From positions 164,388 to 228,387 of the forward strand of contig NZ_LNJZ01000007.1 of NCBI RefSeq assembly GCF_002866065.1: a DNA stretch of 64,000 nucleotides, written 5' to 3'. The notes under the pieces are model-generated. The model searched no databases. It was not told the DNA's origin and was given only the letters and a program-made list of their open reading frames with translations. The position numbers and the translations under genes are program-made. Positions 14,684 through 31,570 of this stretch are shown one piece after another. The DNA comes from Thiopseudomonas denitrificans. GTDB taxonomy: Bacteria; Pseudomonadota; Gammaproteobacteria; Pseudomonadales; Pseudomonadaceae. Position 1 is the stretch's first letter, and every line of letters begins with the position of its first letter.

Positions 14684-15625
14684 ATGCTTTCATTCATACG
14701 TTTTCTGGCTGTCTCCCTGTTGCTGGCTAGCAGCAGCCTGCTCGCCCAGCCACTGCTGGAAGCACACCAGGCCGCCGCCCTGCTGGCCGATGGCGAGCTG
14801 CAAGCCGTGGACATCCGCAGCCCCGAGCTGTACCAGCAAGAGCATATTCCCGGTGCCATTTCCGCACCCTACGGCCGCTGGCGCGGCCCGGCCAGTAATC
14901 CCGGCCAATTGCTCAGTCCGCATGACTTCGAGCAACTGGTGCAGGAGCTGGGCCTGACACCAGAGCAACATATCCTGGTGTATTCGACCGGCGATGACGA
15001 AACCGACTTCGGTGCCGCCGCCCGCGTGTACTGGACCCTGAAATACCTGGGGTTTGAGCGCCTCAGCGTACTGAACGGCGGCTTCAAATACTGGCTGGCC
15101 GGACAGGCCGGCAGCACCGAGCAGGCCGCCCGGCAACTCCCGGCCAGCCTGACCCGCATCCAGCTGCAGCCACAACTGGCTGTCGGCACTGACGAGCTGT
15201 TCGACAAGATCAGCCGTCAGCAAGGCGACTTCCAGCTGCTCGACTCCCGTCCGCCGGCCTTCTTCGAGGGAACCGTCAAGGCACCTACCGCCACGGTTGG
15301 CGGGACCATTGCCGGTGCCCGCAACCTGCCCTTCCAGCAGTGGTTCAATACCAACGACACCCGCATCCGTCCTGCCGCAGAGATCCGCCAGCTGGTGCGC
15401 GAGCAACAACTGACCGAGGCCGGTGAAACCCTGTCATTCTGCAATACCGGCCACTGGGCGGCAACCAACTGGTTTGTCCTGTCCGAGCTGGCCGGGCTGG
15501 ACAATGTCCGCCTGTATCCCGGTTCCATGGCCGAGTGGACGCAAAACCCTGCTGCCCTGCCGATGGCCAACACTCCGGGCCGCTGGCAGCAGATCAAGGC
15601 CAAATTTCAACAACTGGTGCAATGA
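14684..15625 (+). CDS. Periplasmic tandem-rhodanese sulfurtransferase
   Basis: 313 residues with a Sec signal peptide (about 1-21). Two rhodanese domains follow: the first (about 25-145) has the motif DIRSPELYQQEHIPGA but Ser101 where a catalytic Cys would lie (VYSTGDDE); the second (about 160-300) keeps Cys253 in SFCNTGHWA. This is the classic inactive plus active tandem layout of thiosulfate or 3-mercaptopyruvate sulfurtransferases. It would move sulfane sulfur in the periplasm. The YeeE/YedE transporter starts 3 bases after the stop, so the two are surely co-transcribed and probably act on the same sulfur compound. Confidence 0.88.
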   Translation: MLSFIRFLAVSLLLASSSLLAQPLLEAHQAAALLADGELQAVDIRSPELYQQEHIPGAISAPYGRWRGPASNPGQLLSPHDFEQLVQELGLTPEQHILVYSTGDDETDFGAAARVYWTLKYLGFERLSVLNGGFKYWLAGQAGSTEQAARQLPASLTRIQLQPQLAVGTDELFDKISRQQGDFQLLDSRPPAFFEGTVKAPTATVGGTIAGARNLPFQQWFNTNDTRIRPAAEIRQLVREQQLTEAGETLSFCNTGHWAATNWFVLSELAGLDNVRLYPGSMAEWTQNPAALPMANTPGRWQQIKAKFQQLVQ

Positions 15626-15628
15626 TCC

Positions 15629-16723
15629 ATGCTTAAACAACGTAGCGGGCTGATACTGGCCCTGATTGTCTTCACCCTGTTCCTGCTCTGGTTTGTCTCG
15701 ATCCGCCAGAGCCTGCTGTTCGTGGTCGGCATTGGACTGGGACTGGTGCTGGCCGGCCTGCGCTTTGGTTTTACCACCGGCTGGCGCAACCTGATTGAAC
15801 AGCGCGACGCCAGCGGCGCCTATGCCCAACTGCTGTTGCTGGCCATCGCGGCGGCCATATCCCTGCCCCTGCTGGCCGCGTTTCCCGGTGAACTGAGTGC
15901 CGCACTGGGTGCGCCCGGCATCAGCCTGCTGGTCGGCGCACTGGTATTTGGTGCCGCCATGCAAATTGCTGACGGCTGCGGCTCCGGCACCCTGTACAAG
16001 GCCGGCCTGGGCATTCCGCTCAACATGGCGATCTTGCCGGTTTTTGCACTGGGCAGCTTTCTCGGCTCGGCCCATCTGGGCTGGTGGCTCGATCTGGGCG
16101 CCATGCAGCCGGTTAGCCTGCTCGACAGCGCCGGCCTGGGCGGTGCACTGGCGCTGACCTTCGGCGGCCTGGCCGTGGTTGCCGGCCTGTGCTTCTGGTG
16201 GAGCAAGGGCGCGACAACACCCCGCCCCGCCTTCAGCAAGGGCCTGCTGCTGGGCGCCGTGCTGCTGGCGGTACTGGCGGTGCTCAACCTGGTGATTGCC
16301 GGCCAGCCCTGGGGCATCGTCTACAGTTTCGGTCTCTGGGGCGCCAAGATCGCCCAGGCCACCAGCCTGTTCGATCCGACCGTCAACGCCTTCTGGAGCC
16401 AATCGAGTAACGCCACCGCGCTACAGCAATCGGTGTTTCTGGATGTCACCACCATCACCAGCCTCGGCATTCTGGCCGGAGCGCTGCTGGTATTTGCCGG
16501 CAAAAAGAACGACAGCCAGCCAAAGCTGAATGCCACCCAGTGGATCGTAGGCATTGTGGCCGGCTTCCTGCTCGGCTACAGCTCGCGCCTGGCGTTCGGT
16601 TGCAACGTAGGCGCCATGGTCAGCGGCATTTCCACCGGCAGCCTGCACGGCTGGATCTGGGTGGCACTGGCCTTCATCGGTTCACTGGCGGGTGTTCGCA
16701 TCCGCAAATATTACGGGTACTAA
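15629..16723 (+). CDS. YeeE/YedE family (TsuA-like) sulfur-compound transporter
   Basis: 364 residues with about nine to ten membrane segments. The two signature motifs of this family are present: DGCGSG (Cys117) and FGCNVGAM (Cys325), conserved Cys that line the thiosulfate path in the TsuA structure. Between the two halves is a short cytoplasmic or periplasmic loop after residue 190. Coupling to the preceding periplasmic sulfurtransferase suggests uptake of thiosulfate or a related sulfur species. The exact substrate is inferred. Confidence 0.88.
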   Translation: MLKQRSGLILALIVFTLFLLWFVSIRQSLLFVVGIGLGLVLAGLRFGFTTGWRNLIEQRDASGAYAQLLLLAIAAAISLPLLAAFPGELSAALGAPGISLLVGALVFGAAMQIADGCGSGTLYKAGLGIPLNMAILPVFALGSFLGSAHLGWWLDLGAMQPVSLLDSAGLGGALALTFGGLAVVAGLCFWWSKGATTPRPAFSKGLLLGAVLLAVLAVLNLVIAGQPWGIVYSFGLWGAKIAQATSLFDPTVNAFWSQSSNATALQQSVFLDVTTITSLGILAGALLVFAGKKNDSQPKLNATQWIVGIVAGFLLGYSSRLAFGCNVGAMVSGISTGSLHGWIWVALAFIGSLAGVRIRKYYGY

Positions 16724-16726
16724 ACC

Positions 16727-16900
16727 ATGGCACAACTGAAAACCACACGCATCCTGGCTTTCTGGCTGGTGCTCTGCAGTTTTTTTGTCTGGGACTGGCT
16801 GCATTCGGCACCGGTCAACCTGCGCCTCGAGTCGGCGATCTTTGCCCTGGGCTCTGGCCAGGCGCCATCCGGCGGGCACTGCGCGTCTTTTGGAAAATGA
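16727..16900 (+). CDS. Small single-span membrane ORF after the YeeE/YedE gene
   Basis: A 57-codon frame starting 3 bases after the transporter stop, with no clear ribosome site. Residues 8-25 are hydrophobic and Trp/Phe-rich (ILAFWLVLCSFFVWDWLH), then a polar tail ends in Gly-His-Cys-Ala-Ser-Phe-Gly-Lys. Its stop lies directly against a terminator hairpin, so the operon ends here. It might be a real subunit or the truncated start of a longer protein; the abrupt end at the hairpin favours either a genuine mini-protein or a deletion. I do not recognise it. Confidence 0.5.
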   Translation: MAQLKTTRILAFWLVLCSFFVWDWLHSAPVNLRLESAIFALGSGQAPSGGHCASFGK

Positions 16901-16903
16901 ACA

Positions 16904-16927
16904 AAGCCCCTCTTCGGAGGGGTTTTC
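16904..16927 (+). terminator. Terminator of the sulfurtransferase operon
   Basis: CCCCTC, TTCG tetraloop, GAGGGG, then TTTTC. It begins within 10 bases of the small ORF stop. Confidence 0.9.
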
Positions 16928-16950
16928 ATTGAGCATCACCGTGTAAAGAC

Positions 16951-16987
16951 TAAAGTTGCATTTGGCTACCTGGCGGCCGGCCGATAA
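16951..16987 (+). promoter_or_regulatory. Sigma-28-like elements with abnormal spacing before a chemoreceptor gene
   Basis: TAAAGTTG at 16951-16958 and a perfect GCCGATAA at 16980-16987, the two elements of a FliA promoter. They are 21 bases apart rather than 11. The -10 element ends 41 bases before the chemoreceptor ATG. With normal spacing the -35 region would be TTTGGCTA, a poor match. Confidence 0.45.
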
Positions 16988-17028
16988 TGACCTCATATCC
17001 CGTAACCCGCTGACTTGCAAGGCCTGCC

Positions 17029-18582
17029 ATGACAACCAGACGCGTTCTCCTTCTATCTGCCACCATCCTCGCACTAGGTCTGCTTTTGCTGCTGGCATGG
17101 CAGGCAACATCGCCCTGGCTCTCGCCTCTGGTTTTGCTGCCTGTCCTGATCACCATACTCTGGCCGGAACACCGCAGCACAAGCTACCACCCCGACAATA
17201 GCCAGGCCACAGCCAACACCACCACCCGCCTGGCGCAAGAGCTGTCCCACGCCACCAGCCAGAATGCCATCACCGCCGCCGGCGTCAGTCATGCCGCCAT
17301 CCAGCTCGGCAGCAAACTCGACTCCCTGGTAGCCGCCGCAACCCAGATTGAAAGCGGCGCCGAACAGATGATCGTGACTGAAGAGGAAACCGCCCGCCTG
17401 AGCGAAAGCGGCCTGGGCAGTGCCAGTGAGATGCGCGCCAACAGCGAATCCGGCCTCAACGGGCTAAACCAGACCATTGCCTGCATTCAGCGACTGGGCC
17501 GGCAGGCGACCAGCAACGGCGAGCTGGTGCAAAGCCTGAGCAAGCGCAGTGAAGAAATCCAGCAGGTCACCGCCGTGATCCAGAACATTGCCAGCCAGAC
17601 CAACCTGCTGGCACTCAACGCTGCCATTGAAGCCGCCCGTGCCGGCGAAGCCGGTCGCGGCTTTGCCGTGGTCGCCGACGAGGTACGCGCGCTGGCCAGC
17701 CGCACCGCCAGCGCCACCGAAGAAGTGGAAGCCATGGTCAATGACATTCGCCTGCACACCAGTGAAGTCGCCAGCCAGCTGCAACAGCTGATGCTCGAGC
17801 TGACCGACAGCGTCGGGCTGGCTGAGCACGCCGGTGAGCAGCTGACCACCATCACCGGGCTGGCAACCAGTGTCGAACAGCAAATGGGGCAGATCGCCGC
17901 CGGCACACAAAGCAACCGCCAGCGTCTGGACGAACTCTTTCATGCCGTTGCCCAGATGCGCCAGGACCTGTCGGTCAGTGACAACCAGACCCAGCAACTG
18001 AGCCTGGCCGCCAGCGCGCTAGAAAGCCAGACCGAAAGCATTAGCGAGCGGTTGTCGGAAGTCAGCCTGTCCGATTACCACCAGGCGGTTTACGAACTGG
18101 CCCGCAACGCAGCCCAGGCCATCGGCGAGCGTTTCACTGCCGATATCGCCAAGGGAACCCTGCGCGAGCAGGAGCTGTTCGACCGCAAACTGACCCCCAT
18201 TGCCGGGACCCATCCGCAAAAATACAGCAGCAGCTTCGACCGCTATACCGATACCGTCCTGCCCGAATACCAGGAGCCGGTCCTGCAGCATCCCGGGGTA
18301 GTGTTCGCCATCAGCATCACGCCGGAAGGCTACATCCCTACCCACAACACGCCTTACAGCCAGCCGCTGACCGGCAACGCCGAACAGGATTACCTGAACA
18401 ACCGGACCAAGCGCCTGTTCAACGACAAGGTCGGCAGCCGTTGCGGCAGCCATGAAAAGCCCATGCTGCTGCAGACCTACATCCGCGAGACCGGCGAGCA
18501 CATGCACGACCTGTCAGTACCCATTTATGTCAACGGCAAGCACTGGGGCGGTTTCCGTATCGGCTACCACCCGGAACACTAG
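17029..18582 (+). CDS. Methyl-accepting chemotaxis protein with C-terminal sensory domain
   Basis: 517 residues. Two adjacent N-terminal membrane segments (about 5-24 and 30-45) leave essentially no periplasmic domain. The cytoplasmic MCP signalling module follows (about 70-330), with the hairpin tip [20 protein letters not shown] and [10 protein letters not shown]. After it comes a C-terminal domain of about 130 residues with [23 protein letters not shown] and [14 protein letters not shown], a Cache-like module found in other cytoplasmic-sensing receptors. It therefore probably senses an intracellular cue. No C-terminal CheR-binding pentapeptide is seen. Confidence 0.9.
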
Positions 18583-18647: not shown

Positions 18648-20096
18648 TCAGAGGCTGTCGCCAAAATCCTTGCGGAACTGAGCCAGCAGCTTCTGCTGCC
18701 AGTCGGAAACCGGCGCCAGGCGGCCATAGAAGAAGCGCAGGATCTCCGGCTCCTCGGTGAACTCCAGCCCGCCAATCAGGTGACGGTTGGCATACAGCCA
18801 GATGACCCGGTCAATCACATACTTGACCTGCGACAGGGTGAACACCCGGCGCGGCATGGCCAGGCGCACCAGTTCCATGTTGGCAAAGGTTTCGCTGCCG
18901 TCCGGCTCGCGCTGCTCGGAAATGGTGCCACGCTCCATACCCCGTGCCCCGCTGACCAGATATAGCGCAGACGCCAGCGCACCAGCCGGGTATTGCGATT
19001 GCGGAATGTGGTCGACAAACTGCATGGCGTTGATGTGGCAACCCAGACCGCCGGGCGGCGTAATCACCGGCACGCCGGCCTTGGCCAGCTCGTTGACCAT
19101 GTACTCAATAAACAGCGGGCCCTGGCTGATCACGTCCTCGTCCATGGTCTCTTCCAGCCCCACGGTCATCGCCTCCATTTCGCGTACCGACATGCCGCCA
19201 TAGGTCAGGAAGCCTTCATACAGCGGAATCAGGCCGCGCATCTTGTCGTACAGCTCCTTGCTGCGAATGCACATGCCGCCGCCACGAGCGCTGCCCAGCT
19301 TGCGTGCAGAAAAATACAGCACGTCACAGAGGTCGGCGATACGCCTGGTGATCTCGCGGATGCTCAGGTCCTTGCAGGTGGCTTCACGGGTCTTGTTGAA
19401 GTGCAGGTTGTCCTGCAGCAGGCTGGCATCCAGCACCAGCATCAGGTCGTGCTCGTCACAGACCTTGCGGATCTCTTCCAGGTTGGCCACCGAGATCGGC
19501 TGGCCGCCAATCAGGTTGGTACCGGCTTCCATGCGTACAAAAGCGATACGATCGGCACCGTACTCGTCAATGCACTGGCGCAGCTTGTCGATGTCCATGT
19601 CGCCCTTGAACGGCATGTCGCTGGTCACTTCCAGGCCGGCGTCGGCCACCAGCTCTTCCACGATACCGCCATTGAGCACGATGTGCGCCTTGGTGGTGGT
19701 GAAGTGGTAGTTCATCGGCACCACTGCACCTTCGGCGACCAGCACCTGACCGAGAATGTTCTCGCAGGCACGGCCCTGGTGTGCCGGCAGGAAATACGGC
19801 ATGCCGAAAATCTCTTTCAGCTTGTTCTCCAGACGGGTATAGGTGGCGCTGCCGGCATAGCTGTCATCGGCGATCATCATCGCCGCCAGCTGCTGGTCGC
19901 TCATGGCGTTGACACCACTGTCAGTGAGCATGTCCATGAAGACATCCTCATTGCGCAACAGGAACGTGTTGTTGCCGGCCTCGGTAATGGCCTCCAGACG
20001 ACGTTCGATCGGGGGCAGATTGAGCTTCTGTACGATGCGCACCTTGTGCATTTCCAGCGGAACCGGCTCTCCGCCAAAGAACTTCACGTTGGCCAT
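18648..20096 (-). CDS. Tyrosine phenol-lyase/tryptophanase family PLP beta-eliminating lyase, divergent
   Basis: 482 residues. By recalled alignment with Citrobacter tyrosine phenol-lyase, conserved positions include Tyr80 (SYAGS), the HQGR motif, Thr134, Asn194 (TNLIGGQP), Asp223 under the PLP ring, the Schiff-base Lys266 (SARK), Arg389 (GMERG, Arg in phenol-lyases, Ile in tryptophanases), Arg416 (MPRR) and Phe455-Phe456. Differences are Leu226 for the PLP-contacting Arg, a LGSARGGG loop after the Lys, and GGLG in place of GGHA. The C-terminus extends about 20 residues past the family end. The ATG with AGGAG is used; an upstream in-frame extension is unlikely. It may act on Tyr, Trp, Cys or another beta-substituted amino acid. 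The gene diverges from cysT. Confidence 0.82.
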   Translation of the reverse strand: MANVKFFGGEPVPLEMHKVRIVQKLNLPPIERRLEAITEAGNNTFLLRNEDVFMDMLTDSGVNAMSDQQLAAMMIADDSYAGSATYTRLENKLKEIFGMPYFLPAHQGRACENILGQVLVAEGAVVPMNYHFTTTKAHIVLNGGIVEELVADAGLEVTSDMPFKGDMDIDKLRQCIDEYGADRIAFVRMEAGTNLIGGQPISVANLEEIRKVCDEHDLMLVLDASLLQDNLHFNKTREATCKDLSIREITRRIADLCDVLYFSARKLGSARGGGMCIRSKELYDKMRGLIPLYEGFLTYGGMSVREMEAMTVGLEETMDEDVISQGPLFIEYMVNELAKAGVPVITPPGGLGCHINAMQFVDHIPQSQYPAGALASALYLVSGARGMERGTISEQREPDGSETFANMELVRLAMPRRVFTLSQVKYVIDRVIWLYANRHLIGGLEFTEEPEILRFFYGRLAPVSDWQQKLLAQFRKDFGDSL

Positions 20097-20319
20097 GACG
20101 GCACTTCTCCTGTGTGGGAACAAAGTCAATTCGCCGGATGCTATCACAGGATATAGAGTGACAAAGTGATCTGGACCAAGGTTTGTCAAAACAGAAGCCG
20201 GTGCGCAAGCATTGAAAGGATTCCGGCCATGTGCGCTCATGCCATTTGCCTCACATCAAACTGACAAAACAGAATAAGCAGATTACCAATTAGTCTTTTT
20301 AAGAATATGTATTTTTGTC

Positions 20320-20359: not shown

Positions 20360-21178
20360 ATGGCGTTACGTCCTTCTCCCGTCATCCCCGGTTTCAACCT
20401 GACCCTCGGCTACACCCTGGTATACCTGAGCTTGATCGTGCTGTTGCCGCTGGCCGGCATGCTGGTGTACGCAAGCAAGCTGAGCTGGCCGGAGTTCTAT
20501 GCCATTGTCAGTCACGACCGGGTGCTGGCCGCTCTCAAGCTGAGTTTTGGTGCCGCGCTGGCCGCCGCCCTGCTCAACGGCCTGGTCGGCACCCTGCTGG
20601 CCTGGGTGCTGGTGCGTTACCGCTTTCCCGGCCGCAAGATCATCGATGCCCTGATCGACCTGCCCTTTGCCCTGCCAACGGCAGTGGCCGGCATTGCCCT
20701 GACCGCCCTGTATGCACCGCGTGGCTGGGTCGGCCAGTGGGCCAACGAGATCGCCCTGAAAATCGCCTACACCCCGCTGGGGATCATTCTGGCGCTGACC
20801 TTCGTCACCCTGCCCTTTGTCGTGCGCACCGTGCAGCCTGTGCTGGAAGACATTCCCCGCGAGCTGGAAGAAGCGGCCAGCTGCCTGGGTGCCAACAAGT
20901 TCCAGGTGCTACGTCACGTACTGATCCCGGCGCTGCTGCCGGCCTGGCTGACCGGTTTTACCCTGGCCTTTGCCCGTGCCGTTGGCGAGTACGGTTCGGT
21001 GATCTTCATTGCCGGCAACATGCCCGGCAAGACCGAAATCCTGCCCCTGCTGATCATGGTCAAGCTGGACCAGTACGATTACCTCGGGGCCACCGCCATT
21101 GGTGTGATGATGCTGGCTGTGTCCTTTGTCTTCCTGCTGCTGATCAACCTGCTGCAACGCCGGATCAGTCGCGGCTGA
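20360..21178 (+). CDS. cysT: Sulfate/thiosulfate ABC transporter permease CysT (CysU)
   Basis: 272 residues with six membrane spans. The permease EAA loop is visible as [23 protein letters not shown], and [15 protein letters not shown] is typical of CysT. It pairs with CysW in the inner membrane to import sulfate or thiosulfate. The chosen ATG has an AAGG ribosome site; the upstream in-frame codons lie in the promoter region. In Pseudomonas a binding-protein gene (sbp) precedes cysT; here the upstream gene is the divergent lyase instead. Confidence 0.95.
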
Positions 21179-21260
21179 CAACATTGTCCGGACAACCCGC
21201 ATCCACATTGCAAGACCCTGCACAAACGGATTTTCACGTACCCGAACTGGAAAACGAAGC

Positions 21261-22100
21261 ATGAGTACATTAGCCATCACCACCACCGGACTGGCCCGCG
21301 AGCGGCGCTGGGGCGCGATCAGCCTGATTGCCGCTGCCTGGCTGGCCTTCCTGTTTTTCCTGGTGCTACCGCTGGGCGTGGTATTGAGCGAAGCGCTGAA
21401 ACAGGGCTACGCCAGCTTCTTCACCGCCGTCCTGGAGCCTGACGCCATTGCCGCGCTCAAGCTGACCTTGCTCGCTGTTGGTATTTCCGTGCCGCTGAAC
21501 CTGGTGTTCGGCCTCGCAGCCGCCTGGTGCGTGAGCAAGTACGAGTTTCGCGGCAAGAGTCTGCTGGTCACCCTGATCGACCTGCCCTTTTCGGTATCGC
21601 CCATCGTCGCCGGCCTGATCTATGTATTGCTGTTCGGCGCCCAGGGCTTCTTTGGCGACTGGCTGGCCGAACACGACATCCAGATCATCTTTGCCGTACC
21701 CGGTATTGTGCTGGCTACATTGTTTGTCACAGTACCCTTTGTTGCCCGCGAGCTGATTCCGCTGATGCAGCAGCAGGGCACCCAGGAAGAGGAAGCCGCC
21801 CGCCTGCTCGGTGCTTCCGGCTGGCAGATGTTCTGGCATGTCACCCTGCCCAACATCCGCTGGGGCCTGATGTATGGCGTGGTGCTTTGCACCGCGCGGG
21901 CGCTGGGCGAATTTGGTGCGGTATCGGTGGTGTCCGGTCACATTCGCGGTTTTACCAACACACTGCCGCTGCATGTCGAGATTTTGTACAACGAATATAA
22001 CCATGTCGCTGCGTTCAGCGTGGCAACGCTGCTGTTGCTGATGGCGCTGGTGATGTTGCTGGTCAAACAGTGGGTGCAGGAAAAGAAAGGGATGATTTGA
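21261..22100 (+). CDS. cysW: Sulfate/thiosulfate ABC transporter permease CysW
   Basis: 279 residues, six membrane spans, with the EAA motif as [22 protein letters not shown] and [15 protein letters not shown], matching CysW. It forms the second half of the permease channel with CysT. It starts 82 bases after the cysT stop and is followed by 500 bases of repeat-bearing DNA before cysA, an unusually loose join for this operon. Confidence 0.95.
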
Positions 22101-22160
22101 GGCTGGGTTTTGTTTTTGGTGGTTACTGTTTGTGGTTTGGATTTGTGTGGGCGTCAGCGA

Positions 22161-22248
22161 GGTGCAGGTTACGCAGGGTCGCTGCAAGTACGTCCATGTA
22201 AGCTCCCTGTCGCCATCCATGGCGACAAAGCCCTGCTCCACCTGCACC
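22161..22248 (-). repeat. Nested-hairpin repeat, copy A (core on minus strand)
   Basis: Outer stem GGTGCAGG/CCTGCACC (22161-22168, 22241-22248), inner stem GCAGGG/CCCTGC (22173-22178, 22231-22236), and a tip hairpin GTCGCCAT-CC-ATGGCGAC (22209-22226). Between tip and inner stem, on the minus strand, lies the conserved core AGCTTACATGGACGTACT. Same architecture as the copies at 22428 and 56406. Confidence 0.75.
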
Positions 22249-22427
22249 CCACTGCCGCAAACACAGCCTGTGCATTTGTCACAAACAGCACTGAAATTTA
22301 GTGCAAGCCGCCTCAAATCGTGGAAGGGAAAGAAAAGTGAAAAGACAACCTCCCTCGATAATGGCTGCTTTATGAAGGTTTGTTGATTGCAGCTACAGCG
22401 CCTCCTGCCGGTTGCACGGATTTGGCA

Positions 22428-22535
22428 GTAGCGCCGGGGGATGGGTGGAGCAAACCCTCAACGCCATGGATGGCGTTGTGGAGCCTACATGGATGTACTT
22501 GCGGCGTGTTTGCGGAATCCATTCACCGGCGCTAC
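22428..22535 (+). repeat. Nested-hairpin repeat, copy B
   Basis: Outer stem GTAGCGCCGG/CCGGCGCTAC (10 bp, perfect), inner stem GCAAAC/GTTTGC, tip hairpin AACGCCAT-GG-ATGGCGTT (22460-22477), then the core AGCCTACATGGATGTACT. The stems differ in sequence from copies A and C yet pair perfectly. Confidence 0.75.
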
Positions 22536-22600
22536 AGACACCAAGACACCAAGACACCAGTTTTACGACACAACAGAATTCAAGTTACGGGAACAGAAAA

Positions 22601-23569
22601 ATGAGCATCGAAGTCCAGCAAGTGAACAAGGCATTCGGCAATTTCAAGGCGCTGAACGAGATCAATCTGTCGATCCAGTCCGGTGAGCTGGTGGCGCTGC
22701 TGGGGCCGTCCGGCTGTGGCAAGACCACATTGCTGCGCATCATCGCCGGGCTGGAAAAGCCCGATAGCGGCCACATCATCTTCAATGGCGCCGACGTGTC
22801 GCGCCGTGACGTGCGCAAGCGCAATGTAGGCTTCGTGTTTCAGCACTATGCCCTGTTCCGCCACATGACCGTATTCGACAACGTCGCCTTCGGCCTGCGC
22901 ATGAAGCCGCGCCGCCAGCGCCCGTCGGAAAGCGTCATTCACGACAAGGTGCTGGAGCTGCTGCGCATGGTGCAGCTGGACTGGCTGGCCGACCGTTATC
23001 CGGAGCAGCTGTCCGGCGGCCAGCGTCAGCGCATCGCCCTGGCCCGCGCCCTGGCGGTGGAGCCGGAAATCCTGCTGCTGGACGAGCCCTTTGGTGCGCT
23101 GGACGCCAAGGTGCGCAAGGAATTGCGCCGCTGGCTGGCCAACCTGCACGAAGAAATCAACCTGACCTCGGTGTTCGTCACCCACGACCAGGAAGAAGCC
23201 ATGGAAGTGGCCGACCGCATCGTGGTGATGAACAAGGGCGTGATCGAGCAGATCGGTACTCCGGCCGAGGTCTATGAAAACCCGGCCAACGAGTTTGTCT
23301 ACCACTTCCTTGGCGACTCCAACCAGCTGCAGCTGGACGACCAGCAGATCCAGTTCCGCCCGCACGAGGTGTTGTTGTCACGCCGGGCCGAACCCGAACA
23401 CCGTGCCGGTGTCGTGCGTGATATCCGGCCGCTGGGTGCCATCACCCGCGTCACGCTGAAGGTCGAGGGCCAGGAGCTGCCAATCGAAGCCGAAGTGGTG
23501 CGTGATGATGCCAGCCTGAACGGTCTGCAGCGCGGCGAAACCCTGTATTTCAAACCCAAGGCCAGTTGA
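22601..23569 (+). CDS. cysA: Sulfate/thiosulfate ABC transporter ATPase CysA
   Basis: 322 residues. Walker [10 protein letters not shown] (35-43), Q-loop [14 protein letters not shown], signature [15 protein letters not shown], Walker [12 protein letters not shown] and the H-loop THDQEEA are intact; a C-terminal regulatory domain of about 90 residues follows. FRHMTV after the Q-loop and VRKELRRWL are typical of CysA. I take the ATG that gives [10 protein letters not shown]; the in-frame extension upstream runs through repeat DNA. It energises CysTW. Confidence 0.95.
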
Positions 23570-23981: not shown

Positions 23982-24773
23982 TTAGTGGTCGCCCAAAAAA
24001 CTGCTGAGAAAAGCCTTGGTGCGCTCTTCCCTGGGCTCAGTGAAGATTTCTTCCGGCCGGCCTTCCTCGACAAACTTGCCCTGATCGAAGAAACACACCC
24101 GGTCAGAAATCTGCCGGGCAAACTGCATCTCGTGGGTTACCAGCAAAATGGTCAGATCATGCTGGCTCGCCAGGTGTTCGATGACCTGCAGCACCTCCCC
24201 CACCAGCTCAGGGTCCAGTGCCGAAGTCGGCTCGTCAAACAACAGGATATTCGGATGCATTGCCAGTGCGCGGGCAATGCCAACCCGTTGTTGCTGTCCG
24301 CCGGACAGCTGACTGGGGAATTTGTCGGCATGTTCGGTCATGCCAACCAGATCCAGATATTTGAGCGCACGTTTTTTGGCCTTGTCCCGGCTCAAGCCAA
24401 GCACCTGCCTTGGAGCTTCAGTTACATTGCGCATCACCGTCATGTGCGGAAACAGGTTGAACTGCTGGAATACCATGCCCATTTCCTTGCGCATCATGCG
24501 CAAGTGGGCTTCCGACGCAGGCATCAGCTGGCCGTTTTTCTCTTCATGCCAGAGCGGTTTTCCGGCCACATGGATGACGCCGTCCTGAATGTCTTCCAGC
24601 GTCATAAGAATACGCAGCACTGTGGATTTTCCCGAACCGGACGGCCCGATAATGGTTACTTTTTCACCACGGCGCACACTGAAGTCCAGAGCATCCAGCA
24701 CCACATGGTCCCCATAGCTCTTGGTAACGTTTTGAAACTCGATGATTTTGTCTGACTGGTTTGACTCACTCAT
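23982..24773 (-). CDS. ehuA: Polar amino-acid/ectoine-type ABC transporter ATPase (EhuA-like)
   Basis: 263 residues. Walker [10 protein letters not shown] (43-51), [42 protein letters not shown] and VTHEMQFAR, the pattern of the polar amino-acid uptake subfamily. The insert [16 protein letters not shown] after the first strand is characteristic of the ectoine/hydroxyectoine transporter EhuA. Its start overlaps the ehuD stop by 4 bases. Substrate is inferred from resemblance of the four-gene set; glutamine- or lysine-type amino acids cannot be excluded. Confidence 0.85.
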
Positions 24774-25462
24774 TGCAAATGTATTCCTTCTTTGGGCAAG
24801 CGCTCGTCCAGCTTGCGCACGGCCCAGGCCGCTACCAGGGTCATCAGCAGATAAATCAGCCCGACCATGGAGAGCGGAATCATGTAATTGAAACTGCGGT
24901 CGCCAATGATTCTGGCCACATTGAGCACCTCAAGCACCGCTACCACCGACAAGATGGGCACATCTTTCATGATCGAAACCAGATAGTTGCCCAGCGCCGG
25001 AATGATGCGCGGTATCGCCTGTGGCAGGACAATGGCGAAAAAGGTACGTCCCGGCGTCAGGTCCAGCGCCCGTGCGGCTTCCAGTTGACCGGCCGGAACC
25101 GACTGAATGCCGGCCCGGTACACCTCCGATGTATAGGCACTGTACTGCAGGCCCAGCGCCAGGGCTCCGGTCATGAAGGCGGGCAAAACCAGCCCATAAT
25201 CCGGCAGCACGTAGTACAGAAAAAACAGCTGCACCAGCAGGGGCGTATCACGCAAAAACTCGCTAAAGAAGCGGGCTGGCCAGGCAACCAGCCGGCTGCG
25301 CATGCCTTTCAGGCCAGCCAGCACCAGGCCAAACCCGGCCGCCAGCAAAAAACCGACAACGGTGGCCTGCAGTGTGACTAACAGGCCCTTGCCTAGAATC
25401 GGCAGGATGGATACGGCAAACGCCCAGTGACTGCTGGTATCCCATTCAATTCCAAACAGCAT
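24770..25462 (-). CDS. ehuD: ABC transporter permease (EhuD-like)
   Basis: 230 residues, five or so membrane spans, with the HisM/GlnP-type permease motif [25 protein letters not shown]. It forms a heteromeric channel with the preceding permease. The start codon shares one base with the ehuC stop (TGATG), so translation is coupled. The assignment to ectoine transport rests on order ehuB-C-D-A and family resemblance. Confidence 0.83.
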
Positions 25463-26136
25463 CAGACACTGCCTCCCGCACGCCAGCGGCAGGCGTAGCG
25501 CTCTGCCAGTTTCATCAGCCCGGCCACCACCAGTGCCATGCCGAAATACATCAGCAGCAACAGGCTGTAAATGGTCGTACTGTCCTGGGTAAAGTTGCGC
25601 AGCTGTTCGGCCTTGTAGGCCAGATCAGCCAGGCTGATCAGCGACACCAGCGCGGTATCCTTGAGGTTCTGGATCGCCAGGTTGCCCAGGCTTGGCATCA
25701 TTTCCGGCACTGCCTGCGGCACGATGATGCGCCACATGGTCTGTCTCGGGCTGAAATCCAGTGCCTTGGCCGCCTCATACTGTTCAGGGGCCACCGCCTG
25801 GATCGCACCACGCACCACCTCTGCCGCATAGGCACCTATGTTCAGCGCCAGCGCCAAGGTGCCCACCAGCATCGGCGGAAAGCGCCAGTCATAGCCAAGC
25901 GTCTGACCAATCATCGGCAGGGCGAAATACAGCCAGAACAACTGCACCAGCAGTGAGGTGCCACGAAAAAACTCGATAATGCCCGCACTCAGGCCATGCA
26001 CAAAAGGGTTGTCTGAAACCCTCCCGACACCGAGTACAAAAGCAAAAAACAACCCCAGCACACTGGAGTAGAGAGTCAGTTGTACGGTAATCCAGGCACC
26101 GGAAAGCAAATGACCGCTATAGGTTAGAATATCCAT
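25462..26136 (-). CDS. ehuC: ABC transporter permease (EhuC-like)
   Basis: 224 residues, about five membrane spans, with the EAA-type motif EQYEAAKALDFSPRQTMWRIIVPQA and a FFRGTSLLVQLFWLYF segment typical of His/Glu/Gln/Arg-type permeases. I start at MDILTYSG because the upstream in-frame part is Pro/Gln-rich and lies in the gap after ehuB. It is 154 bases downstream of ehuB; this gap may hold a hairpin that lowers permease expression relative to the binding protein, but I find no perfect one. Confidence 0.83.
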   Translation of the reverse strand: MDILTYSGHLLSGAWITVQLTLYSSVLGLFFAFVLGVGRVSDNPFVHGLSAGIIEFFRGTSLLVQLFWLYFALPMIGQTLGYDWRFPPMLVGTLALALNIGAYAAEVVRGAIQAVAPEQYEAAKALDFSPRQTMWRIIVPQAVPEMMPSLGNLAIQNLKDTALVSLISLADLAYKAEQLRNFTQDSTTIYSLLLLMYFGMALVVAGLMKLAERYACRWRAGGSV

Positions 26137-26290
26137 GATCAAGATTGGCAACAGTTCGCTAGAAGGCCCGGGGCGGGCCTGCTGTTGTGTAGAGCCGGCG
26201 TACCGGCCGGTCTTCATGCAGACCGGCCTCTGCTGTCACTACGCTTGCGCTGTAAACGGGGCGGCCAAAAAAGGCTGTTGCCCCGACCTG

Positions 26291-27148
26291 TTAGCCGTCA
26301 CACAGCTCCTGTGTGGTTTTCTTGAATGACTCCTCGCGGTCATGGGCAACAAAGCCGTTGCGTTCCATGATTTCTTCCCACTCGGGAGTCTGCTTGAAAC
26401 GGGCCAGCTCTTCGCTGATGGCATCGCGCAGCGCATCCGAGCCCTGGGCAAAAGTAAAGCCGCCCCAACTGCGTACGGTTTCACCGTTGATCACGGGATC
26501 GGTAAAGTCTTCTACCACTTCAACCTTGTTGCTTTGTGCTGCCAGTCCGGCAGCCGTCTGGCCGGTCGCCGCATAGGCATCGGCCCGACCGGTAGCCACA
26601 GTGGAAATGGCATCCGAATTGGTGGCGATGGTGACCATGCGTGATTCATCCATGCCCAGCGCCTGCATCATTTCCAGCTGGTCGGCACCGGCCATGATCG
26701 CCAGCTTGTAGCTGCCCTCGACAAAGTCATCGTAACCTTTCAGGCCTTTCGGGTTGCCGGCTGGCACCAGCAGGCCCTCACCGTAGGAGCTGTTGGGCTC
26801 GGAAAACAATACGGTTGTGCAGCGCTGGGGCAAAATGGCCATTTCCGCTGCCACCATGTCAAAACGATCGGCTTTCAATCCCGGAATCAATGAGCTGAAG
26901 TTGGTTACCTGCCATTCGATCTTGTCGATGCCGATATTTTTCAATACCTGTGCAGCCACTTCAGGCCCGGCCCCTTTCACATCGCCATTGAGGTCGGCAT
27001 AGCCGTAAGGAATTTCATTGGCCACAGCGACTCGGATTACACCCTTGTCTTTCAGCTGGGCCAGGTCTGCCGCAAACAGGTTCGCACTGGTTATTGTTAG
27101 CGCTGCCGTAACAGCTGTGAGCACCATGGTTTTGCGTAGGTTTTTCAT
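26291..27148 (-). CDS. ehuB: ABC transporter substrate-binding protein (EhuB-like)
   Basis: 285 residues with a Sec signal peptide (about 1-26, ending LFAADL). The mature protein is a type II solute-binding fold: GVIRVAVANEIPYGY near the start, DMVAAEMAILPQR, then GRADAYAATG. The Met-Ala-Ala-Glu and Tyr-rich early segment resembles EhuB, which binds ectoine in an aromatic cage. An AAGGA ribosome site precedes the ATG. First gene of the operon; the doe-type ectoine degradation genes are not in the window. Confidence 0.83.
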   Translation of the reverse strand: MKNLRKTMVLTAVTAALTITSANLFAADLAQLKDKGVIRVAVANEIPYGYADLNGDVKGAGPEVAAQVLKNIGIDKIEWQVTNFSSLIPGLKADRFDMVAAEMAILPQRCTTVLFSEPNSSYGEGLLVPAGNPKGLKGYDDFVEGSYKLAIMAGADQLEMMQALGMDESRMVTIATNSDAISTVATGRADAYAATGQTAAGLAAQSNKVEVVEDFTDPVINGETVRSWGGFTFAQGSDALRDAISEELARFKQTPEWEEIMERNGFVAHDREESFKKTTQELCDG

Positions 27149-27487
27149 GTCAGTCCTTTTTAGTTTTCTAATCAGGACGAGCCATGCTACAGCAGGAAAA
27201 AAAACAGTTACAAATTTATTTTCGGCTTTACCGGACACTGCAGGCCCTTGCCCGGCAGTCGCAAGCACCTGTAGATAACACGAAAAAACCACCCAGAAAC
27301 AGGCGCTTGAAAGAGCCTCAGCATCAGGCCAAAAGGCTTGGGCAACACCGGAAAATATTTTTCAGGCTGTACAAAAAACAACCACAGCGATAGTTGAAAT
27401 CTACCGGGAAAACCTTTGTCCGGGCAAGCACCCCAGTAAAATCCCATGGTTTCCTTCGTCAGAAAGCCACAACTGACTGGAACTTTT
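27149..27487. other. 339-base intergenic region upstream of ehuB
   Basis: No gene is seen. On the minus strand a plausible ehuB promoter is TTGTAA, 18 bases, TAGCAT (about 27184-27213), with a long T run between. The rest is unremarkable; no clear terminator for the methyltransferase gene was found. Confidence 0.4.
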
Positions 27488-31460: not shown

Positions 31461-31570
31461 GGCGGCCCTGCCAGCCACACCCCGGCACACAATGTCACCG
31501 CTGCGGCTGCTCCCTTCCGGGCCTGACCGGGTTCACGGTTAATCGTTGCGAGGGGACCAACAGAGCCGCC
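31461..31570 (-). ncRNA. ffs: 4.5S signal recognition particle RNA
   Basis: The 110-base minus-strand sequence begins GGCGGCTCTGTTGG and ends with CAGGGCCGCC, which pair to close the long hairpin. The apical part carries the Ffh-binding signature: GGTCAGGCCCGGAAGGGAGCAGCC, split as GGTCAGG, the GGAA tetraloop and AGCAGCC. It forms the SRP with Ffh for co-translational membrane targeting. It lies 118 bases upstream of dnaX on the same strand, as in other pseudomonads. A promoter about 34 bases upstream implies a 5' leader to be removed by RNase P. Confidence 0.96.

Follow-up and report, generated by a model that had tools for sequence, protein, structure and literature searches.

A distinct subfamily beside tyrosine phenol-lyase and tryptophanase whose most likely role is tyrosine supply

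A gene in the window (the whole stretch of 64,000 nucleotides that was analysed) encodes a PLP-dependent lyase. It belongs to a branch of the tyrosine phenol-lyase (TPL)/tryptophanase enzymes that is widespread and apparently has no name. On sequence comparison, its odd active site is that of a distinct subfamily beside TPL and tryptophanase. The job of this enzyme is most likely the supply of L-tyrosine, probably through TPL-type chemistry run towards synthesis, a reading to which we assign a probability of about 0.45. Where the regulation of the subfamily can be read, it tracks tyrosine starvation. The sole annotated member that we noted, from Rhodobacter sp. CZR27, is named 'tryptophanase', and the NCBI family model that scores best on the window protein agrees; such a label implies indole production, and the subfamily is without the indole site. 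If these enzymes make tyrosine, they represent a route that bypasses prephenate. If they do not, then a substrate has still to be found for a mostly stand-alone PLP enzyme placed under a tyrosine riboswitch. In full-text literature searches, which were not aimed at T-boxes, no title or abstract opening singled out the subfamily.

A subfamily with an altered PLP site

The lyase gene (18648..20096, minus strand) was identified by open reading frame calling and profile models and is genuine, with an ATG start at 20096 and a product of 482 amino acids. Its base composition (GC 60%, GC3 0.80) is similar to that of neighbouring genes. The protein passes the NCBIfam model for the PRK13238 'tryptophanase' subfamily (NF009709; 607.6 bits against a cut-off of 285) and Pfam Beta_elim_lyase (167.7 against 27), and falls below the cut-offs of the equivalog models for TPL (TIGR02618; 426.3 against 720.7 bits) and TnaA (TIGR02617, 357.2 against 825.8; NF053783, 375.3 against 750). 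Its top PDB matches are TPLs at approximately 38-39% identity. A search of the window's own genome found no second copy of the lyase, the only other match being short and weak (34% over 67 residues).

A species-wide scan that took a single genome per species (84,980 species) returned at least 590 pattern matches, 573 of which encode relatives. The best 80 of these 573 share 69-91% identity with the window protein over nearly its whole length and derive from Thauera, Azonexus, purple non-sulfur bacteria, Clostridia, Bacillaceae and single MAGs of other phyla. The closest orthologue among the matches listed is from Thiopseudomonas (91% identity; loci L003 and L010 are the same). Identities of full-length matches are bimodal (subfamily at 50% or above, other family members at 43% or below), and prevalence could therefore be counted from listed identities. 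A member occurs in 3 of 144 genomes around the window's, its own included, and in 1 of 398 Pseudomonadota, its own only, which bears out the suspicion that such an enzyme is rare in this group. The corresponding figures are 10 of 150 for relatives of a Thauera, 19 of 197 for relatives of Pseudobacteroides (three partial), and at least 45 of 398 for relatives of a Tepidanaerobacter (two being fragments). On a 'Phycisphaerales' MAG contig (L011), the lyase and its flanking genes nearly match a Thauera locus (L013); this is probably a binning error, and it gives no ground for listing the Planctomycetota among the carrier phyla. Genes of the wider TPL/tryptophanase family, at about 35% identity, were also seen in phage records (MG065691.1 and MG065686.1 from Campylobacter; MT836576.1, faecal).

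In a midpoint-rooted tree of 61 rows, 38 subfamily rows lie on one side of a branch of length 1.95 with support of 100/100, and TPL, tryptophanase and 18 other rows lie on the opposite side. The window protein is placed outside the clade of characterised TPLs. The phylogeny proposed as a check on the original prediction thus yields a subfamily standing beside TPL and tryptophanase, with no clustering inside the characterised enzymes. An AlphaFold model of the window protein, built from a 43-row alignment (pLDDT 86.7), has TPL as its nearest fold (best match 7tcs, Z 51.7, rmsd 1.8, 452 residues aligned), followed by tryptophanases and then by an SH domain (Z 35.9).

We compared the active site residues of 83 subfamily sequences with those of 20 others (TPLs, tryptophanases and further PRK13238 members), leaving L099 and L100, both distant relatives, out of the count. 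Alignment with C. freundii TPL equates Lys266, the PLP Schiff-base lysine (codon 19299..19301; this and all codons below are on the minus strand), with TPL Lys257, and likewise Asp223, Arg389 and Phe455 with TPL Asp214, Arg381 and Phe448, all as originally assigned. Two assignments need correction: TPL Thr124 aligns with Thr133 instead of Thr134, and the carboxylate-binding TPL Arg404 aligns with Arg411 instead of Arg416, the latter being equivalent to TPL Arg409. The catalytic frame of Tyr80, Asn194, Asp223, Lys266 and Arg411 is retained in the alignment. So too are most phenol-site residues of TPL, with Thr133, Met387, Arg389 (codon 18930..18932), Ser393 and Phe455 present in 83 of 83 members and Phe456, the equivalent of TPL Phe449, also conserved. 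Passages of PMC11301627 give Lys266 as the catalytic base and Tyr72 as the acid, have Asn194 binding both PLP O3' and the carboxylate and Arg414 (Arg411 in the window protein) binding the carboxylate, and describe how Thr124 and Arg381 of TPL hold the hydroxyl group of the bent phenol, which is the role we assign to the TPL-type Arg389.

Six other positions are invariant across the subfamily and different in all 20 comparison sequences, namely Leu226 (Arg in the others), Asp78 (Glu), Asp229 (Glu), Leu231 (Ala), Arg265 (Lys) and Leu351 (His). Leu226 (codon 19419..19421) occupies the place of the PLP-site Arg217 of TPL, confirming that a PLP-contacting Arg has been replaced. Leu351 (codon 19044..19046) occupies that of His343, and this is the change of GGHA to GGLG that had been noticed in the sequence; Arg265 and Asp78 stand at TPL Lys256 and Glu69. 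Leu267 is found in 82 of 83 members (Asp in 20 of 20 others) and Arg271 in 82 of 83 (Asn in 19 of the 20 others, Pro once), while Arg188, Gly192 and His354, the last equivalent to TPL Phe346, are present in 83 of 83 members and 0 of 20 others. The glycine-rich loop following Lys266 is real, and reads LGSARGGG in the window protein in place of DCLVNIGG in TPL. At the position of TPL Met288 the window protein has Phe296, as in tryptophanase. This signature holds with few departures in a second set of 14 sequences of 56-81% identity, which overlaps the 83 by two (L004 and a copy of L076), and it is mostly kept in five members at 50-53% identity (L209-L213), which have Thr192, Ser267 and, in two cases, Val351.

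The predicted 20-residue C-terminal extension (residues 463-482; 18651..18710, minus strand) is also present. Alignment identifies W466, L470, F474, D477 and L482 as subfamily-specific within it, the AlphaFold model predicts a helix at 466-478, and W466, L470 and F474 are unchanged in 83 of 83 sequences. Given these invariant positions, the extension and the loop after Lys266 are traits of the subfamily and neither chance features nor sequencing errors. The central claim of the original prediction, that the gene encodes a lyase of the TPL/tryptophanase family and that its active site is unusual, is thus supported.

Arg217 and His343 are important for TPL catalysis, and with both lost and Phe in place of Met288 the chemistry could differ from that of TPL. 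In TPL, Glu69 and Asn262 serve as cation ligands. Both positions are altered in the window protein (to Asp and Arg, respectively), and our guess is that the Arg at the Asn position might replace potassium. The Arg that matches TPL Arg217, by way of an inferred numbering offset, is described in part of PMC3870968 as contacting the carboxylate of the intermediate.

Regulation of the gene and its relatives

A T-box switches a gene on when the cognate tRNA is uncharged. Rfam scans of subfamily loci revealed T-box leaders directly upstream of the lyase and on the same strand. We reduced 111 Bacillota-side loci to 90 distinct proteins. Loci counted as Bacillota-side if their title said Bacillota or if they came from relatives of two Bacillota genomes; L198, from the second group, is the same as L057, whose title gives Fusobacteria. 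Thirty-five of the 90 have a same-strand T-box within 700 nt upstream, 34 of them with the Tyr specifier UAC and one with UGC; 55 are without, including four with less than 400 nt of upstream sequence, one of which has none. The Rfam gathering score is reached by 30 of the 35 (L076 via its copy L136), three lie below the threshold of 93 bits (L086 at 90, L147 at 83 and L063 at 74; E <1e-13) and two (L219 and L220) were recognised by motif only. UAC was read in 15 of 15 loci of the first set (L147 by eye) and in both of the tandem leaders of L041 (again by eye), and the picture was unchanged in a hold-out set of loci from the Tepidanaerobacter relatives. The single leader with another specifier (L194, 2997-3217, minus strand) reads UGC (Cys) in the same register and keeps UGGU, a poor fit to the usual Cys discriminator. 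As a check on the register, we read CAC before genes that look like hisZ/hisG and AUC before a gene for a branched-chain amino-acid binding protein, all named by eye. According to a table in TBDB, UAC makes up 0.99 of Tyr specifiers, and T-boxes serve to infer the functions of unknown genes (PMC7778990).

The T-box motif is missing in front of all 23 paralogues scanned in Bacillota-side genomes, of which the pocket residues class 18 as TPL-type and 5 as tryptophanase-type. Including four from Pseudomonadota-side genomes, where T-boxes are unexpected, the same pattern scan gave 0 of 27. The comparison of 35 of 90 with 0 of 23 gives a Fisher p value of 8e-5, uncorrected for relatedness and with controls scanned by pattern rather than Rfam, 20 of the 27 having been hand-picked from the list of Tepidanaerobacter relatives. 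On a tree of all 35 T-box members and 50 of the 55 others, the T-box label is clustered and changes seven times (three forced by supported branches), which fits neither a single event nor random scatter. The window protein and four other Pseudomonadota members lie amid T-box carriers in this tree, without local support. No T-box motif was found in the available upstream sequence of the deeper tier (L209-L213).

No T-box was found in the Pseudomonadota members, nor by Rfam in the window, where the lyase gene is thus without a Tyr leader of its own. The only match in the window at an Rfam gathering threshold is a small SRP RNA (31466-31562, minus strand), and no tRNA genes were found there. The window gene is preceded, at 83 nt from its start codon, by a weak FNR/ANR-like site, TTGGTCCAGATCAC (20166..20179, minus strand), which matches 8 of 10 consensus letters and has no counterpart upstream of the congener orthologue (L010/L003). 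Among 33 upstream regions from the Pseudomonadota side, 13 contain a site of this quality, compared with 38 of 406 control starts, and between -92 and -74 the figures are 7 of 33 and 7 of 406; the p values of these comparisons are too small, since the 33 regions include an exact duplicate (L003 and L010) and near relatives (L011 resembles L013) and are non-independent. In Bacillota the frequency (10 of 43) is that of shuffled sequences (mean 8.8). FNR-type anaerobic control may operate in part of the Pseudomonadota members. The R. capsulatus gene rcc00516 ('tpl') is listed as RegA-dependent in an aerobic-culture table (PMC5359404). However, strain SP108 has two family members, and rcc00516 could therefore not be assigned to the subfamily. 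L119 and L120 are second family members found in Rhodobacter genomes that also carry a subfamily member; both have Ile where TPL has Arg381, together with an Asp/His pair of the indole type.

Probable tyrosine supply and competing explanations

A TPL-type phenol site in an enzyme produced under tyrosine shortage is most simply read as a tyrosine-supply enzyme, and suggests that the lyase helps to provide tyrosine rather than to break it down. In the Bacillota-side relatives, shortage of tyrosine would leave tRNA-Tyr uncharged and turn on the T-box, whereupon the lyase would be made; it is this induction by uncharged tRNA that makes a supply role probable. Phenol would then be joined to aminoacrylate, formed either from serine or from pyruvate and ammonia, to yield L-tyrosine, assuming a source of free phenol. 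The TPL reaction is reversible. Together with the reported ability of TPL to make DOPA from pyruvate and a phenol (PMC7508748), this renders tyrosine synthesis from phenol chemically reasonable. The link to tyrosine is carried from the Bacillota to the window gene by the shared invariant site. We infer that the window enzyme would have the same function as its T-box relatives, a phenolic substrate and a physiological direction towards synthesis.

Against a supply role, 55 of the 90 Bacillota-side members are without a T-box and that of L194 reads UGC. The genome of the window encodes a prephenate dehydrogenase (TyrA) domain, as do 29 of 35 carriers overall, so that most carriers need no second route to tyrosine and the enzyme would be auxiliary in them. 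We considered whether the lyase replaces TyrA and rejected the idea. The TyrA domain PF02153 is missing from 6 of 15 T-box genomes, which are mostly MAGs of uncertain completeness, and is present in 20 of 20 others. Other losses accompany it, with four of the six lacking both PF00800 and PF01264, one lacking PF00800 and one lacking PF01264, and the loss is therefore not specific to TyrA; incompleteness or aromatic auxotrophy may lie behind it. In a bolder form, which we regard as tentative, the subfamily might constitute a 'tyrosine synthase' family that forms tyrosine from phenol and a three-carbon amino donor independently of prephenate. Uncharged tRNA-Tyr would induce it in Bacillota, anoxia might do so in Pseudomonadota, and its PLP site would have been remodelled for synthesis and might not need K+.

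The original prediction raised a sulfur amino acid as a possible substrate because the gene diverges from sulfate-uptake genes. The arrangement itself is as described, with the lyase on the minus strand and cysT (20360-21178), cysW (21261-22100) and cysA (22604-23569), identified by profile models, on the plus strand (20360..23569 in all). Adjacency is not conserved, however: 10 kb of sequence upstream of the lyase in the congener L010 gave no match to cysT, cysW or cysA, and the gene next upstream there is another, which by eye resembles a lipoprotein gene. We therefore rejected sulfate-uptake adjacency as a guide at the level of the genus, on the evidence of this one congener, and the sulfur idea is left with little support. 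Beyond these genes, the window contains ABC transporter genes (23982-27154) whose ATPase and binding protein exceed the cut-offs for the ectoine/hydroxyectoine proteins EhuA and EhuB. Downstream of the lyase (14684-18582) are genes for a rhodanese-domain protein, a YeeE/YedE-like sulfur transporter and a chemoreceptor (MCP), which follow the same order in L010, the one congener examined.

Conserved gene neighbourhood was likewise rejected as a guide to substrate, there being no recurrent specific family in 81 loci (the 80 best matches and L009) or in 12 further stretches, which contributed no additional shared neighbour. Within the 81 loci, the only neighbour families to stand out are large generic superfamilies (ABC ATPases in 29 loci; two-component proteins and chemoreceptors in 6-7); the ORFs came from a custom caller, and the first family tally still contained antisense artefacts. 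Among 111 nearest neighbours, a subset of the 150 listed, no Pfam family occurs more than three times, and an NCBIfam comparison gave a similar result. Small groups, such as DUF554 and a gene that we take to be TraX-like, look like local synteny. A same-strand gene lies within 100 nt upstream in 0 of the 81 loci and within 100 nt downstream in 13, three loci having no upstream ORF and three no downstream ORF.

Four other explanations deserve consideration. The best placed of them, although unlikely, is that the enzyme breaks down a toxic analogue of tyrosine, or a phenolic amino acid of non-protein type, which would block tyrosyl-tRNA charging, turn on the T-box and be removed by beta-elimination. 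This would account at once for the TPL-type pocket and for induction by uncharged tRNA-Tyr, and would suit a mostly stand-alone gene of patchy distribution. On the other hand, no export or resistance family is found in more than 3 of the 111 nearest neighbours, and T-boxes typically control synthetase, biosynthesis and transport genes, as set out in parts of PMC2494555. It is also improbable, and ranks just behind, that the loss of the Arg/His pair and the gain of Arg188, Arg265, Arg271 and His354 signal some other PLP chemistry (an aldol reaction, a decarboxylation or another reaction yielding tyrosine). All or nearly all members have these newly gained charged residues, and fold-type-I reaction classes differ in the residue three after the PLP Asp, but the beta-elimination apparatus of Tyr80, Lys266, Arg411 and Asn194 is retained.

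A drifted but otherwise ordinary catabolic TPL, which under anaerobic conditions would split tyrosine into phenol, pyruvate and ammonia, would explain why most phenol-site residues persist, why TPL is the closest fold and why FNR-like sites occur in part of the Pseudomonadota. We nevertheless consider it distinctly improbable, because induction by starvation is the wrong logic for catabolism, 0 of the 18 TPL-type paralogues scanned share the T-box, Arg217 and His343 are replaced, and the protein scores far under the TPL cut-off and is placed outside the TPL clade. Least probable of all is a beta-lyase for cysteine, S-alkylcysteine or a persulfide. The divergent sulfate-uptake genes, the YeeE-like transporter and rhodanese retained in L010 and the UGC specifier of L194 are all in keeping with it, as are the reaction of tryptophan indole-lyase with S-ethyl-cysteine (mentioned in PMC11301627) and the thiocysteine lyase activity attributed to a related PKS SH domain (9cen). 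Yet the cys genes are unmatched beside the same-genus orthologue, no sulfur-related neighbour family is prominent, 34 of 35 T-boxes read Tyr and the TPL-type phenol site is largely intact, and so we do not retain the sulfur substrate that was first proposed. Tyrosine supply remains our preferred reading.

Comparison with known systems

The closest well-characterised enzyme is TPL (EC 4.1.99.2; C. freundii 2ez1, E. herbicola 1c7g), with which the window protein shares its fold (Z up to 51.7), the Schiff-base Lys, general acid Tyr and carboxylate Arg, and equivalents of Thr124, Met379, Arg381, Ser385, Phe448 and Phe449. It differs from TPL in overall sequence (38-39% identity) and in the replacement of Arg217 and His343 by Leu, Lys256 by Arg, Asp258 by Leu, Asn262 by Arg, Glu69 by Asp and Met288 by Phe. 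The subfamily as a whole has the C-terminal extension, sits outside the TPL clade and has a Tyr T-box in many members, compared with 0 of 18 TPL-type controls. Tryptophanase (EC 4.1.99.1; 1ax4, 2oqx) has the fold, the framework of the PLP site and Phe at the Met288 position in common with the window protein, which is nevertheless without the indole-specific Asp133 and His458 (it has Thr133 and Phe455) and has Arg389 instead of Ile.

More remote is the SH (thiocysteine lyase) domain of the guangnanmycin PKS (9cen), which belongs to the same fold family (Z 35.9, 21% identity). In the PKS-embedded SH domains covered in part of PMC3870968, the Arg381 equivalent is missing and, in the one modelled, Tyr71 is replaced, whereas the window enzyme keeps both, as Arg389 and Tyr80. 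A TPL-like PLP domain (L100) was also observed inside a 7013-residue open frame, presumably a PKS, in a genome of the window's class; this relative retains the Arg217 equivalent, which the window enzyme has lost.

For the proposed regulation, the nearest precedent is in the B. cereus group, where T-boxes govern both the tyrosine operon and phenylalanine hydroxylase, which converts Phe to Tyr (PMC2494555, in the main text of which words beginning phenol, lyase or tryptophanase do not occur). The enzyme family differs, and in our case the T-box precedes relatives and not the window gene. What the two would share is T-box control of a tyrosine-making enzyme that lies outside the main pathway.
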